NCBI GenBank assembly: GCA_009841605.1
Contig: VXLM01000047.1
Location: 15,924 to 61,564, forward strand
Source of the DNA: Dehalococcoidia bacterium
GTDB taxonomy: Bacteria; Chloroflexota; Dehalococcoidia; Lucifugimonadales; VXLM01
DNA: 45,641 nt
Reading direction: 5' to 3'
The notes under the pieces were generated by a model, which was not told the origin of the DNA, ran no database searches, and worked only from the letters and a program-made list of their open reading frames with translations. The translations under genes were made by a program, and so were the position numbers. Positions 34,376-39,447 of the stretch are shown here, in pieces (the stretch's first letter is position 1; every line of letters starts with the position of its first letter).

Positions 34376-34420
34376 CATTTTAGATTCTTCGACTTCGCTG
34401 CGCTTCGCTCAGAATGACAA
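34376..34420 (-). repeat. Dispersed extragenic repeat family 1, inverted
   Basis: CATTTTAGATTCTTCGAC...CAGAATGACA, the mirror of the unit 100 bp to the left. Confidence 0.75.
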
Positions 34421-34552: not shown

Positions 34553-34606
34553 GTAACAGAGATGTAACAGAACGGCAACACCGAAGCAACAAGCCCCGAA
34601 TATAGT
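34553..34606 (+). promoter_or_regulatory. GlnR-like operator array and -10 of amtB
   Basis: GTAAC (34553), GTAAC (34564), GCAAC (34575) and GCAAC (34586), each separated by exactly 6 nt (11-bp period), then 10 nt to a -10-like TATAGT at 34601-34606; no -35. This fits the actinobacterial GlnR pattern gTnAc-n6-GaAAc and an activated promoter. The same layout occurs at 36332-36385. Confidence 0.78.
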
Positions 34607-34653
34607 CGTTCCGTTCCAATCAAATGCGTTTTCCGAAAAAGGAGGCTTCAAGA

Positions 34654-35973
34654 ATGAACGCATTGGCTAAAACGGCTCACCTAACCCCCACCAAGCTCCG
34701 GTTGATGATGATCGCCCTGCTCGGCATCGGCATCTTCTTCGGAACGATAGGAGTCGCCTACGCGCAGGGCGCCGTTTCCGCGGACGACGTCGACTCCAAG
34801 CTCAACGACTTCATCCTCGTCGCCGCCGCCGCGCTCGTCTTCTTCATGCAGGCCGGATTCGCCTTCCTCGGCGCGGGCCTCATCCGCTCCAAGAACACCG
34901 TCAACTACATGACCAAGTCGTTCCTCGACTTCTGCATAGCCTCCCTCGGCTTCTGGGCCTTCGGCTATGCGCTCATGATGGGTGGCGGAGCGGCCTCCGG
35001 CATCATCGGCCTCGAGGGCTTCTTCCTCCTCGACTTCGAGGACACCGACCTCGTCGCATGGTTCTTCCAGATGGTCTTCGCCGGCACCGCCGCAACCATC
35101 ATCGCGGGAGCCGTCGCCGAGCGCACCAAGATCAACGCATACTTCGCCTACAGCTTCATCGTCGGCGCGGTCGTCTACCCCATCTACGGCCACTGGGCGT
35201 GGAGCGATGAGGGCTGGCTGACGCAGATCGGCCCCGGCTTCGCCGACTACGCCGGTTCCGGTGTAGTCCACATGATCGGCGGCTTCCTCGCACTCGCCGG
35301 CGCGATAGTCGTCGGTCCTCGCAAGGGCTTCCGCGAGGGCGCCGACCTCAAGGGCCACAACATGCCCTACGTCGTCGTCGGCACCTTCATCCTCTTCTTC
35401 GGCTGGTTCGGCTTCAACATCAACTCCGACAGCCTCGGCCTCAACGCCGTCAACACCCTTCTGGCGGGCGCCGCGGGAGCCGTCTCCGCCATCTACATAG
35501 CCATGATCCGCACTGGCAAGGCCGACATCGAGATGGGCGCGAACGGCGCTCTGGCCGGTCTCGTCGGAATCACCGCCGGGTGCGCCTACGTCGACCCCTG
35601 GGCCGCCGTCGTGATCGGCCTCTTCGCCGGAGTCATCATGATCGCCGGAGTCCACATCATCAAGCTCGTCCTAAAGGTCGACGACCCCGTCAGCGCCATC
35701 ACCGTCCACGGCATCTGCGGCGCGTGGGGCCTGCTGGCCGTCGGCATCTTCGCATCCGGAAACAACGGCGTCGAAGGATTCATCGCCGGAGACTTTGAGC
35801 AGATTGTCCCGCAGATCGTCGGTATGCTCGTGGCCATCGCCTGGGGCCTCGGCGCGGGATTCATCCTCTTCAAGGCCATCGACCTCACCATCGGCATGAG
35901 GGCGTCCGAAGAAGAGGAAGAGCAGGGCCTCGACGTACCCGAGCACGGCAGGTCCGCATACCCCGAAATGTAG
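34654..35973 (+). CDS. amtB: Ammonium transporter
   Basis: 439 aa from the ATG at 34654 (AAAGGAGG upstream); an earlier in-frame ATG at 34624 overlaps the promoter leader and has no such site. Signal-like first helix ending VAYAQG, then about 11 membrane helices. Amt signatures: DYAGSGVVHMIGG with the conserved pore His, FFGWFGFN, and the second pore His in ITVHGICGAWG. It conducts ammonium/ammonia across the membrane. No PII gene (glnK) follows, unlike the common amtB-glnK pair. Its promoter carries the operator array, implying nitrogen control. Confidence 0.93.
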   Translation: MNALAKTAHLTPTKLRLMMIALLGIGIFFGTIGVAYAQGAVSADDVDSKLNDFILVAAAALVFFMQAGFAFLGAGLIRSKNTVNYMTKSFLDFCIASLGFWAFGYALMMGGGAASGIIGLEGFFLLDFEDTDLVAWFFQMVFAGTAATIIAGAVAERTKINAYFAYSFIVGAVVYPIYGHWAWSDEGWLTQIGPGFADYAGSGVVHMIGGFLALAGAIVVGPRKGFREGADLKGHNMPYVVVGTFILFFGWFGFNINSDSLGLNAVNTLLAGAAGAVSAIYIAMIRTGKADIEMGANGALAGLVGITAGCAYVDPWAAVVIGLFAGVIMIAGVHIIKLVLKVDDPVSAITVHGICGAWGLLAVGIFASGNNGVEGFIAGDFEQIVPQIVGMLVAIAWGLGAGFILFKAIDLTIGMRASEEEEEQGLDVPEHGRSAYPEM

Positions 35974-36331: not shown

Positions 36332-36385
36332 GTGACATATTTGTAACATCTGTGCAATACACTGGAAACACTGGTCTCCCATACT
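36332..36385 (+). promoter_or_regulatory. GlnR-like operator array and -10 before the microprotein/glutamine synthetase II
   Basis: GTGAC (36332), GTAAC (36343), GCAAT (36354) and GAAAC (36365) at exact 11-bp steps, then 10 nt to a -10-like CATACT (36380-36385). Spacing is identical to that at amtB. The boxes match gTnAc-n6-GaAAc even better here. Confidence 0.75.
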
Positions 36386-36424: not shown

Positions 36425-36520
36425 ATGGAAGTGGTAATTGGGGCGGTGGCGTTCATGGTCCTGTTCGCGGTCTGGGTAATTCTCCCAAGCCGAATTCGAA
36501 AGCAGAATAAGGACTCCTGA
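36425..36520 (+). CDS. Putative 31-aa single-span membrane microprotein
   Basis: ATG at 36425, stop TGA at 36518. The peptide opens MEVVIGAVAF, continues as one hydrophobic span (about residues 4-20) and ends basic (PSRIRKQNKDS), a positive-inside layout. GAGG lies 12 nt upstream, a weak site. It is the first frame after the predicted nitrogen-controlled transcription start (about 36392) and is followed by a hairpin. It might be a regulatory small protein for Amt/GS, or the transcript may act as RNA; unproven. Confidence 0.4.
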   Translation: MEVVIGAVAFMVLFAVWVILPSRIRKQNKDS

Positions 36521-36678: not shown

Positions 36679-37704
36679 ATGGAATACTACAAGGCTGAAT
36701 ACATCTGGATAGACGGTTCGGAGCCGACCTCGAAGCTCCGGTCCAAGACCAAGATCGTCCCCAAGGGCGAGGAGCCTCCCATCTGGGGCTTCGACGGATC
36801 GAGCACCAACCAGGCCCCCGGCGAGAACTCGGACTGCGTGCTCAGGCCGGTCTACACCTGTCCCGACCCGATTCGCGGCGGCGACGACATCCTCGCCATG
36901 TGCGAGGTCCTCTTGACCGACCTGTCGCCTCACCCGTCCAACACGAGGGCAGCCTGTGCCGAGGCAGCCGAAAAGTACGCCGATTTCGATATGTGGTTCG
37001 GCATCGAGCAGGAATACACCTTCTTCGACGGCATCAAGCCGCTCGGCTGGCCCGACAACGGCTTCCCCGCCCCGCAGGGCGGCTACTACTGCGGCGTAGG
37101 CTCAGACGAGGTCTTCGGACGACCCATCGTCGAGGCCCACATGGACGCCTGCCTCCGCGCAGGACTGGGCATCTCCGGCATCAACGCCGAGGTCATGCCC
37201 GCGCAGTGGGAGTTCCAGATTGGACCCGTCGGCGCTCCCGCCGTCGGTGACGAGCTGTGGATCGCCCGCTGGCTCCTCTACCGCATCGGTGAGGATGTAC
37301 ACATCTCCGACAAGGAGAACACGGGCGTCTCCGCAAGGCTCGATCCCAAGCCGATGCAGGGCGACTGGAACGGCGCGGGCGCTCACTGCAACTTCTCAAC
37401 CGTCCAGATGCGCGAGAACTACGACGCCTGCATCGCCGCCGCCGAGGCCCTCAAGGGCAACCACGAGGCCCACATCGCCGAGTACGGCGACCGCATCGAA
37501 GAGCGCCTGACGGGACACCACGAGACCTGCTCCTACAAGGAGTTCAGGTACGGCGTGTCCGACAGGGGCGCGTCCGTCCGCATCCCCTGGCAAGTGGAGC
37601 AGGACGGCAAGGGGTACATCGAGGACAGGCGGCCAAACGCCAACTGCGACCCCTACAGGGTCACCCGACTCATACTCAACACGGTGTGCGGAGCAGCATC
37701 CTAA
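36679..37704 (+). CDS. glnII: Glutamine synthetase type II (eukaryotic-like)
   Basis: 341 aa; GAGGGAG-type site before the ATG. GSII marks: YIWIDGSEP, WGFDGSSTNQA, the catalytic FGIEQEYTFF, GAGAHCNFST, and an Arg-rich end (SYKEFRYGVSDRGASVRIP, cited in part as GVSDRGASVRIP). It forms decamers that make glutamine from glutamate, ammonium and ATP and is not adenylylated. GSII is normal in eukaryotes and found in Rhizobiales, Actinobacteria and some others, so this copy may come by transfer. It sits between amtB and a type I synthetase. Confidence 0.92.
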   Translation: MEYYKAEYIWIDGSEPTSKLRSKTKIVPKGEEPPIWGFDGSSTNQAPGENSDCVLRPVYTCPDPIRGGDDILAMCEVLLTDLSPHPSNTRAACAEAAEKYADFDMWFGIEQEYTFFDGIKPLGWPDNGFPAPQGGYYCGVGSDEVFGRPIVEAHMDACLRAGLGISGINAEVMPAQWEFQIGPVGAPAVGDELWIARWLLYRIGEDVHISDKENTGVSARLDPKPMQGDWNGAGAHCNFSTVQMRENYDACIAAAEALKGNHEAHIAEYGDRIEERLTGHHETCSYKEFRYGVSDRGASVRIPWQVEQDGKGYIEDRRPNANCDPYRVTRLILNTVCGAAS

Positions 37705-37797: not shown

Positions 37798-37843
37798 CCT
37801 GTCATTTCGAACGCAGCGCAGCAAAGTGAGGAATCTAAAATCC
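37798..37843 (+). repeat. Dispersed extragenic repeat family 1
   Basis: CCTGTCATTTCGAACG...GAGGAATCTAAAATCC, most like the copy at 20837. Confidence 0.8.
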
Positions 37844-37987: not shown

Positions 37988-38017
37988 TTGACACAAAAAT
38001 TCATGAATAGCTATACT
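37988..38017 (+). promoter_or_regulatory. Strong sigma-70 promoter of glutamine synthetase I
   Basis: Consensus TTGACA (37988-37993), 18-bp spacer, TATACT (38012-38017). No 11-bp box array is evident, so unlike amtB this gene looks constitutive. Confidence 0.75.
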
Positions 38018-38079
38018 GAACGTTCCCCGTAGGCCCCATGAGGCCGGTGAGAACCTGGAGTCCCGGAAATACGGACACC

Positions 38080-39447
38080 ATGCCAGCTACCCTAGAGCGA
38101 GACCCAGAGGAGATCGAGTACGTCCTCCGCAAGGCGCGGGAGAACGACGTCAAGTTCATTCGCCTGTGGTTCACCGACATCCTCGGAAGCCTCAAGGGCT
38201 TGGCCGTCACTGTCGAGGAGCTGGAAATCGCCCTCACGCGGGGCATGAACTTCGACGGCTCCTCCATAGAGGGATTCGCTCGCTACCGCGAGACCGACAT
38301 GTACGCCCTTCCGGATCCCACCACGTTCAGCCTCCTGCCCTGGCGGCCGAAGACCAACGCAGTCGCCAGGATGTTCTGCGATCTCATCACCCCGACGGGA
38401 GAGCCTTTCGAGGGCGACCCGCGCGCCGTTCTGCGACGCAACCTCGAACGCGCCTCAAAGCTCGGCTACACCTACTACGTCGCGCCGGAGCTGGAGTATT
38501 TCTACTTCAAGGACTCCGACGGCGTTGAGTTCCTCGATGAGGCCGGCTACTTCGACCAGAACCCCCAGGACCTCGCGACGAATCTCCGACGTGAGACCGT
38601 CCTGACCCTGGAGGACCTCGAAATCCCCGTCGTCTACAGCCATCACGAGGTCGCCCCCAGCCAGCACGAGATAGACCTCAGGCACACCGACGCGCTCACC
38701 ATGGCCGACACCGTCATGACCTGCCGCGTGGTCATCAAGGAGGTCGCCGTCAGCCAGGGGTGCTACGCCACCTTCATGCCGAAGCCCGTCTACGGCATAA
38801 ACGGCAGTGGAATGCACACCCACCAGTCCCTCTCCAACGGGAACGGCAACGCCTTCCACGACCCCGACGACCCCGACCGGCTCTCGCAGGAGGCCAAGTG
38901 GTTCATCGCCGGGCTGCTCCGGCACGCCCCCGAGATCACCGCCATCACCAACCAGTGGGTCAACTCCTACAAGCGGCTCGTCCGCAGTCCCGACGACGCG
39001 CCCCTCGGCTACGAAGCGCCCGTCTACGTCTCCTGGGCCAACGTCAACCGCTCCGATCTCGTCCGCGTGCCGACCTTTAAAGAGGGCCGCGAGGAGTCCC
39101 GGCGCATCGAGTACCGCGCCCCAGACCCCGCGTGCAACCCTTATCTTGCCTTCAGTGTCATGCTCGCCGCCGGTTTGGAGGGCATCGAGAAGCAGTACGA
39201 ACTCCCGCCCGCCGCCGAGACGAACGTCTTCGACATGACCGACGAGCAGCGCCGCGACGCGGGAATATCCACCCTCCCGCGCTCCCTCGAAGAGGCCGTC
39301 GCCGCCACCGAGCGGAGCGACCTTGTGCGCAACGCCCTCGGCGACCACGTCTTCGAGAGCTTCATACACAACAAGAAAGTCGAGTGGGACCGCTACTCCA
39401 TGCAGGTCACCGACTACGAAATCGACCGCCACCTAGCCGACTTGTAA
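38080..39447 (+). CDS. glnA: Glutamine synthetase type I
   Basis: 455 aa from the ATG at 38080; an in-frame ATG at 38038 would add 14 residues and lies just after the predicted transcription start, so it is possible too. GSI signatures: NFDGSSIEGF, APELEYFYF, SQHEIDLR, NGSGMHTHQS, and EYRAPDPACNPYLAFSVML (cited in part as RAPDPACNPY). Around the site adenylylated in GSI-beta enzymes the sequence is NVFDMT, with Phe for the modified Tyr, so it should not be controlled by adenylylation (alpha type). It makes glutamine for the GOGAT encoded directly downstream (gltB begins 9 nt after the stop). Confidence 0.92.
   Translation: MPATLERDPEEIEYVLRKARENDVKFIRLWFTDILGSLKGLAVTVEELEIALTRGMNFDGSSIEGFARYRETDMYALPDPTTFSLLPWRPKTNAVARMFCDLITPTGEPFEGDPRAVLRRNLERASKLGYTYYVAPELEYFYFKDSDGVEFLDEAGYFDQNPQDLATNLRRETVLTLEDLEIPVVYSHHEVAPSQHEIDLRHTDALTMADTVMTCRVVIKEVAVSQGCYATFMPKPVYGINGSGMHTHQSLSNGNGNAFHDPDDPDRLSQEAKWFIAGLLRHAPEITAITNQWVNSYKRLVRSPDDAPLGYEAPVYVSWANVNRSDLVRVPTFKEGREESRRIEYRAPDPACNPYLAFSVMLAAGLEGIEKQYELPPAAETNVFDMTDEQRRDAGISTLPRSLEEAVAATERSDLVRNALGDHVFESFIHNKKVEWDRYSMQVTDYEIDRHLADL

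Follow-up and report, generated by a model that had tools for sequence, protein, structure and literature searches.

A ladder of GTAAC-like boxes upstream of the ammonium transporter gene amtB of a Dehalococcoidia bacterium very probably serves as operator for an orphan response regulator of the GlnR type (L085), which would switch on the amt and glnII units by class II activation when nitrogen is scarce. This reading is drawn from sequence comparison, and we infer from it that the protein binds the ladder, that it activates and does not repress, and that the signal is a shortage of nitrogen. Control of the GlnR type is already known; its occurrence in Dehalococcoidia appears to be unreported in the literature that we searched, where no account of GlnR in Chloroflexi/Chloroflexota was found (subscription papers lay outside the search). 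The relevant features of the window, that is, the whole stretch of 45,641 nucleotides that was analysed, are the following:

34553..34590, forward strand: GlnR-type ladder before amtB (sequence, shuffles and genome-wide pattern search; 31.1 bits with the sequence model R1 described below)
34601..34606, forward strand: -10 element TATAGT of the amtB promoter, exactly 10 nt past the last box and without a -35
34654..35973, forward strand: amtB, ammonium transporter, 439 aa (PF00909, 402.7 bits; TIGR00836 above cut-off)
36332..36369, forward strand: second ladder, GTGAC 36332, GTAAC 36343, GCAAT 36354 and GAAAC 36365, upstream of glnII (R1 match)
36380..36385, forward strand: -10 element CATACT of the second ladder, 10 nt past the last box
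36425..36520, forward strand: microORF for 31 aa with a single transmembrane segment, MEVVIGAVAFMVLFAVWVILPSRIRKQNKDS, the first cistron after the second ladder (conserved; third-codon-position excess)
36679..37704, forward strand: glnII, type II glutamine synthetase, 341 aa (NF041605 GlnII, 594 bits, cut-off 500)
37988..38017, forward strand: ordinary sigma-70 promoter TTGACA-N18-TATACT before glnA (read from the sequence; no ladder)
38068..39447, forward strand: glnA, type I glutamine synthetase (TIGR00653, 480.5 bits, above cut-off), without a ladder

The boxes upstream of amtB read GTAAC (34553-34557), GTAAC (34564-34568), GCAAC (34575-34579) and GCAAC (34586-34590), with a pitch of 11 bp and spacers of 6 nt, and re-reading the sequence placed them just as the preliminary description had claimed when it reported four GTAAC-like boxes with N6 spacers at exact 11-bp steps. 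Its claim that they end 10 nt before a -10-like element lacking a -35 was likewise borne out: TATAGT lies at 34601-34606, and no -35 was found for the amtB promoter, the position that a 17-bp spacer would assign to it (34578-34583) being occupied by ACACCG. The start codon is at 34654, with AGGAGG 5' of it at 34640-34645. The ladder consists of direct repeats and is not a palindrome, its reverse-strand scores being far lower. Shuffling the window gives an expected count of 0.00 for a run of three GYAAC boxes spaced by this pitch, and the four-box pattern with no mismatches occurs once in the 3.23-Mb genome, at the amtB ladder. Allowing up to three mismatches gave 29 sites genome-wide versus 23 for the reversed control, barely above it, so that only near-perfect sites stand out; this relaxed pattern was dropped in favour of R1. 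Copies of a dispersed repeat that resemble each other, TTAGATTCTTCGACTTCGCTGCG... and the inverse form, flank the nitrogen genes at 34383-34420 and 37802-37840 of the window.

Published GlnR boxes follow t/gTAAC-n6-Gc/aAAC in M. smegmatis and gTnAc-n6-GaAAc in an a-b-a-b arrangement in S. coelicolor, and the actinobacterial protein binds a-b box pairs (PMC10704036). GlnR additionally needs an AC-n9-AC spacing (PMC3662644), which is exactly that of the ladder in the window. The proposed match to the GlnR consensus gTnAc-n6-GaAAc thus holds, since both boxes and pitch agree with those published for the two species. The description of the operator as lying outside Actinobacteria is right as well, the closest named relatives belonging to Dehalococcoidia/SAR202; those nearest by AmtB come from Dehalococcoidia and SAR202 metagenome-assembled genomes, at 74-84% identity, and this kinship places the host in Chloroflexota.

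The arrangement is conserved. A significant forward ladder (200 shuffles per upstream region, p <= 0.01) was found in 61 of 81 upstream regions, a count that includes the amtB and glnII promoters of the window. Upstream of amtB in relatives the ladders are often longer, typically of six boxes and up to eight, in which GTAAC, TTAAC or GTTAC alternates with GCAAC, GAAAC or GCAAT. In 43 of the 61 ladder-bearing promoters the last box is followed by TANNNT at an offset of exactly 10 nt; the next commonest offsets are 15 (seven promoters) and 21 (five, consistent with one missed box). Across species the letters of the spacers change while the box positions and the -10 phase are kept.

This promoter architecture suggests an activator role at amtB. 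Protomers of a regulator with the OmpR/PhoB fold would occupy successive 11-bp direct repeats on the same side of the helix, probably joining head to tail so that each dimer covers a pair of boxes, with the dimers stacked along the repeats. Because only 10 nt separate the last box from the -10, the bound protein would cover the missing -35, present an activating surface and recruit RNA polymerase (class II activation) when nitrogen is scarce. The predicted output is ammonium uptake, through amtB and a second amt gene, together with assimilation, through the unit of microprotein and glnII; how strongly a promoter is activated may depend on how many boxes it has.

To locate further targets we used R1, a sequence-only model trained on 30 ladders that stand before amtB in this genome and its relatives, among which the amtB ladder of the window (scored above) is one training row. 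Searched over the whole genome with E up to 10, R1 returned exactly three sites, all at nitrogen genes and two of them untrained. One untrained site is the second ladder of the window (26.7 bits, E 1.5e-5, second-best in the genome), which shares the design of the amtB ladder and had escaped the preliminary description. The other, at C125:3958 (14.8 bits, E 0.08), comprises two boxes only, GAAAC-n6-GTAAC, followed after 10 nt by TATCAT, and lies directly 5' of the second ammonium transporter gene of the genome (PF00909, 415 bits). The preliminary description had asked whether such boxes might be equally frequent at unrelated genes; they are not, the R1 sites being those of amtB, the glnII unit and the second amt. 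Within the window, ladders mark two of three neighbouring units (amtB and glnII), the third being glnA, at whose promoter R1 found no match. Three exact GYAAC boxes at 11-bp pitch elsewhere in the genome (L001 1501-1527; G000:C59:3418-3444, reverse strand) were set aside, having neither an R1 match nor a nitrogen gene; they lie near a transposase-like fragment and are probably a chance occurrence.

Across 39 relatives, an R1 site is present in 28 genomes, and the next gene encodes an ammonium transporter, a glutamine synthetase or P-II at 25 of 29 examined loci, a few of which coincide with training rows. A separate draw of further genomes of the class gave an amt, glutamine synthetase or P-II gene downstream at 18 of 19 loci. 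For these tallies whole genomes were used, and a baseline taken from R1 matches within amtB loci was discarded as biased, those loci having been chosen around amtB. Among the weaker sites, L194 precedes a fragment of a molybdopterin oxidoreductase, matched best in NCBIfam by NasC (assimilatory nitrate reductase) though below the full-length cut-off, and L191 an oligopeptide-type permease; no phosphate gene was identified among the ladder targets. A ladder-like site before a small CBS-domain-like ORF (L193; G055:C1:1857227-1857277, reverse strand) may mark a non-nitrogen target, and the ladder match L177 in one relative was rejected as a plain tandem repeat.

The genome encodes a candidate regulator. 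An OmpR-family GlnR homologue, for which the preliminary description had advised a search, is present as L085 (G000:C31:6035-6643), one of nine Trans_reg_C proteins in the genome and an OmpR-type protein whose effector domain matches PF00486 at 95 bits. Its best PDB matches are 8hig (E 1.2e-32), 8hih and 8hml (to 6e-29), which we take to be GlnR chains (the PDB title reads OmpR-family regulator), with RegX3 following at 3e-23. Maximum-likelihood analysis grouped 29 Dehalococcoidia-side orthologues with two actinobacterial GlnRs in a single clade, with support of 100/99, against a small outgroup of only ten other OmpR-family regulators. Two other regulators of the genome that were tested are closer to BaeR, RegX3, MtrA and PhoP than to GlnR. 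Most of the identity to actinobacterial GlnR falls in the DNA-binding domain; the effector domain is almost identical around the recognition helix (GGTRTVDVHIRRLRSK vs GGTRTVDVHVRRLRAK), and the receiver is only weakly similar. The receiver of L085 is degenerate, without the acidic pair and without the conserved Lys where typical regulators have KP; the alignment of orthologues shows D/E at the LVD position and an Asp kept at the position of the phosphorylation site. The receiver model PF00072 is matched by one of the 29 orthologues, and the GlnR N-terminal model PF21695 matches L085 weakly (20 bits vs a cut-off of 27), reaching E 0.01 in 10 of the 29 (best 6e-6). A motif scan of flanks of ~1.5 kb at 34 loci found no histidine kinase beside L085 or its orthologues.

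Ladder and regulator also occur together. Among 47 genomes reached through their amtB loci, 25 of the 29 ladder-bearing ones have an orthologue vs 5 of the 18 with no ladder (Fisher p = 1e-4, shared ancestry ignored). In a 40-genome set, an R1 site is present in 27 of 32 genomes with an orthologue vs 2 of 8 without (p = 0.0026, phylogeny ignored), and at least one of the latter two is a tandem-repeat match. No orthologue was detected in the ladder-bearing genomes G004, G007, G014 and G033, all metagenome-assembled and of uncertain completeness. The glnR gene adjoins amtB in 11 of 80 loci, and in the class draw 10 of 19 loci have it no more than 1.5 kb from the ladder, often followed by amt, P-II or glnA. 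Strong orthologues (E < 1e-55) were found in 20 of 201 genomes drawn across the phylum; all 20 belong to Dehalococcoidia, of which 24 genomes were sampled, and the rest of the phylum sample had none.

Other readings of the ladder were weighed against these data. Another regulator of the OmpR/PhoB family, PhoB/PhoP or MtrA-like, might bind it, the nitrogen genes then being cross-regulated. Direct repeats of 11 bp are also used by PhoB/PhoP and MtrA-like proteins, PhoB-type operators likewise end about 10 nt before the -10, and eight other Trans_reg_C proteins are encoded in the genome. At amtB of Streptomyces, moreover, PhoP and GlnR compete (PMC10704036). However, the sites lie at amt, glutamine synthetase, P-II and a nitrate-reductase-like gene and at no identified phosphate gene, the ladders co-occur with and often adjoin the GlnR orthologue specifically, and the two other regulators tested resemble BaeR, RegX3, MtrA and PhoP more than GlnR. 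We consider this reading unlikely.

That the ladder represses amtB as a roadblock would have a precedent in M. smegmatis, where GlnR can be a repressor (PMC3662644), but a -10 without a -35, with the ladder in a fixed upstream phase, is what is expected of an activator that substitutes for the -35, and the neighbouring glnA, free of a ladder, has a full TTGACA/TATACT promoter; repression thus seems very improbable. As for a chance or tandem-repeat tract devoid of regulatory function, the tandem repeat in one relative and the stray three-box match in a non-nitrogen region speak for it. Against it stand the expected count from the shuffles, the divergence of spacers under persistent boxes and -10 phase, and the target specificity; this conservation and specificity already refute the idea, to which we assign a vanishingly small probability. 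An operator for activation by the GlnR-type L085 is therefore our preferred reading.

Downstream of the second ladder, a leader of ~290 nt extends to glnII and holds the microORF. Rfam at gathering scores gave no match in the window, and hence no known riboswitch was seen in this leader. Related ORFs encode 27-43 aa with invariant F, W and P and a basic C-terminus; they occur in 59 of 80 amtB loci and in 2 of 59 control loci, both of which are re-fetched amtB or glnII loci. Differences by codon position (524/336/1119), together with 10 nucleotide vs 1 amino-acid difference in close pairs, indicate that the microORF looks like a coding sequence under selection. In a whole-genome search, 11 of 12 matches with E < 1e-5 sit 39-93 nt downstream of an R1 ladder, the one exception being the second copy of a tandem pair (G057). 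Tandem ladder-microORF copies, several in a row, were found at L021 5597-6924 and L023 5398-6432.

From this arrangement a GlnR ladder appears to switch on the microORF. A tie of the microORF to Amt is likely; it is not universal, because some members in other families of the phylum stand apart from nitrogen genes. Two such relatives (L240 and L241) have no amt, glutamine synthetase or P-II gene within about 4 kb, and in L244 (G207:C48:91014-91224) a lone ladder is followed 85 nt later by the microORF, with no nitrogen gene nearby. No convincing match was found in Pfam, NCBIfam or the PDB, and the microprotein, unnamed in the curated libraries searched, is the part of the system that is likeliest to be new. 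Tentatively, the microproteins driven by GlnR ladders could form a new family, each of ~30 aa and crossing the membrane once, that acts on ammonium transport or on the coupling of transport to glutamine synthesis; they might, for example, be small accessory or inhibitory subunits of Amt, or anchor glutamine synthetase or P-II to the membrane.

These results would show both halves of a GlnR-type nitrogen switch, its operator and its regulator, to be present in Dehalococcoidia, a class that includes deep-ocean SAR202 lineages and, probably, cultivated relatives, and they give a testable nitrogen regulon for lineages known mainly from metagenomes. Naturally occurring ladders, which range from 2 to 8 boxes at a fixed -10 phase, should be useful for studying how the activator works, and the analysis also exposes a microprotein family left unnamed by the curated libraries searched.

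Several known systems invite comparison. A small protein of the archaeon Methanosarcina mazei reportedly inhibits ammonium transport (PMC10714827). The microORF, with its likely tie to ammonium transport, may be compared with it, and differs in its bacterial host, in its 31 aa and in its location in glnII/amt units. Pho boxes are 11-bp direct repeats on which an OmpR-fold activator replaces the -35; the PhoB/PhoP systems thus share the fold, the repeat pitch and the -35 replacement with the ladder, whereas box sequence and targets differ, and PhoB works with a partner kinase and a receiver that can be phosphorylated, neither of which was seen for L085. GlnR/TnrA of Firmicutes, proteins of the MerR family with a palindromic operator, are alike in name and in nitrogen control, but the protein family is unrelated and the site described here is a direct repeat; NtcA operators are palindromic too, in contrast to the ladder. 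The regulon detectable here comprises about three units, whereas that of GlnR in M. smegmatis comprises over 100 genes (PMC3662644). Actinobacterial GlnR further differs in phylum and in its receiver, and the ladders of relatives reach up to 6-8 boxes at a rigid 10-nt distance to the -10, which may be a further difference. With GlnR of S. coelicolor, M. smegmatis and A. mediterranei, the system nevertheless has in common the box consensus, the 11-bp direct-repeat pitch and the a-b pairing, the targets (amtB, glnA, glnII, P-II and nitrate assimilation), and an orphan OmpR-type protein with a degenerate receiver.
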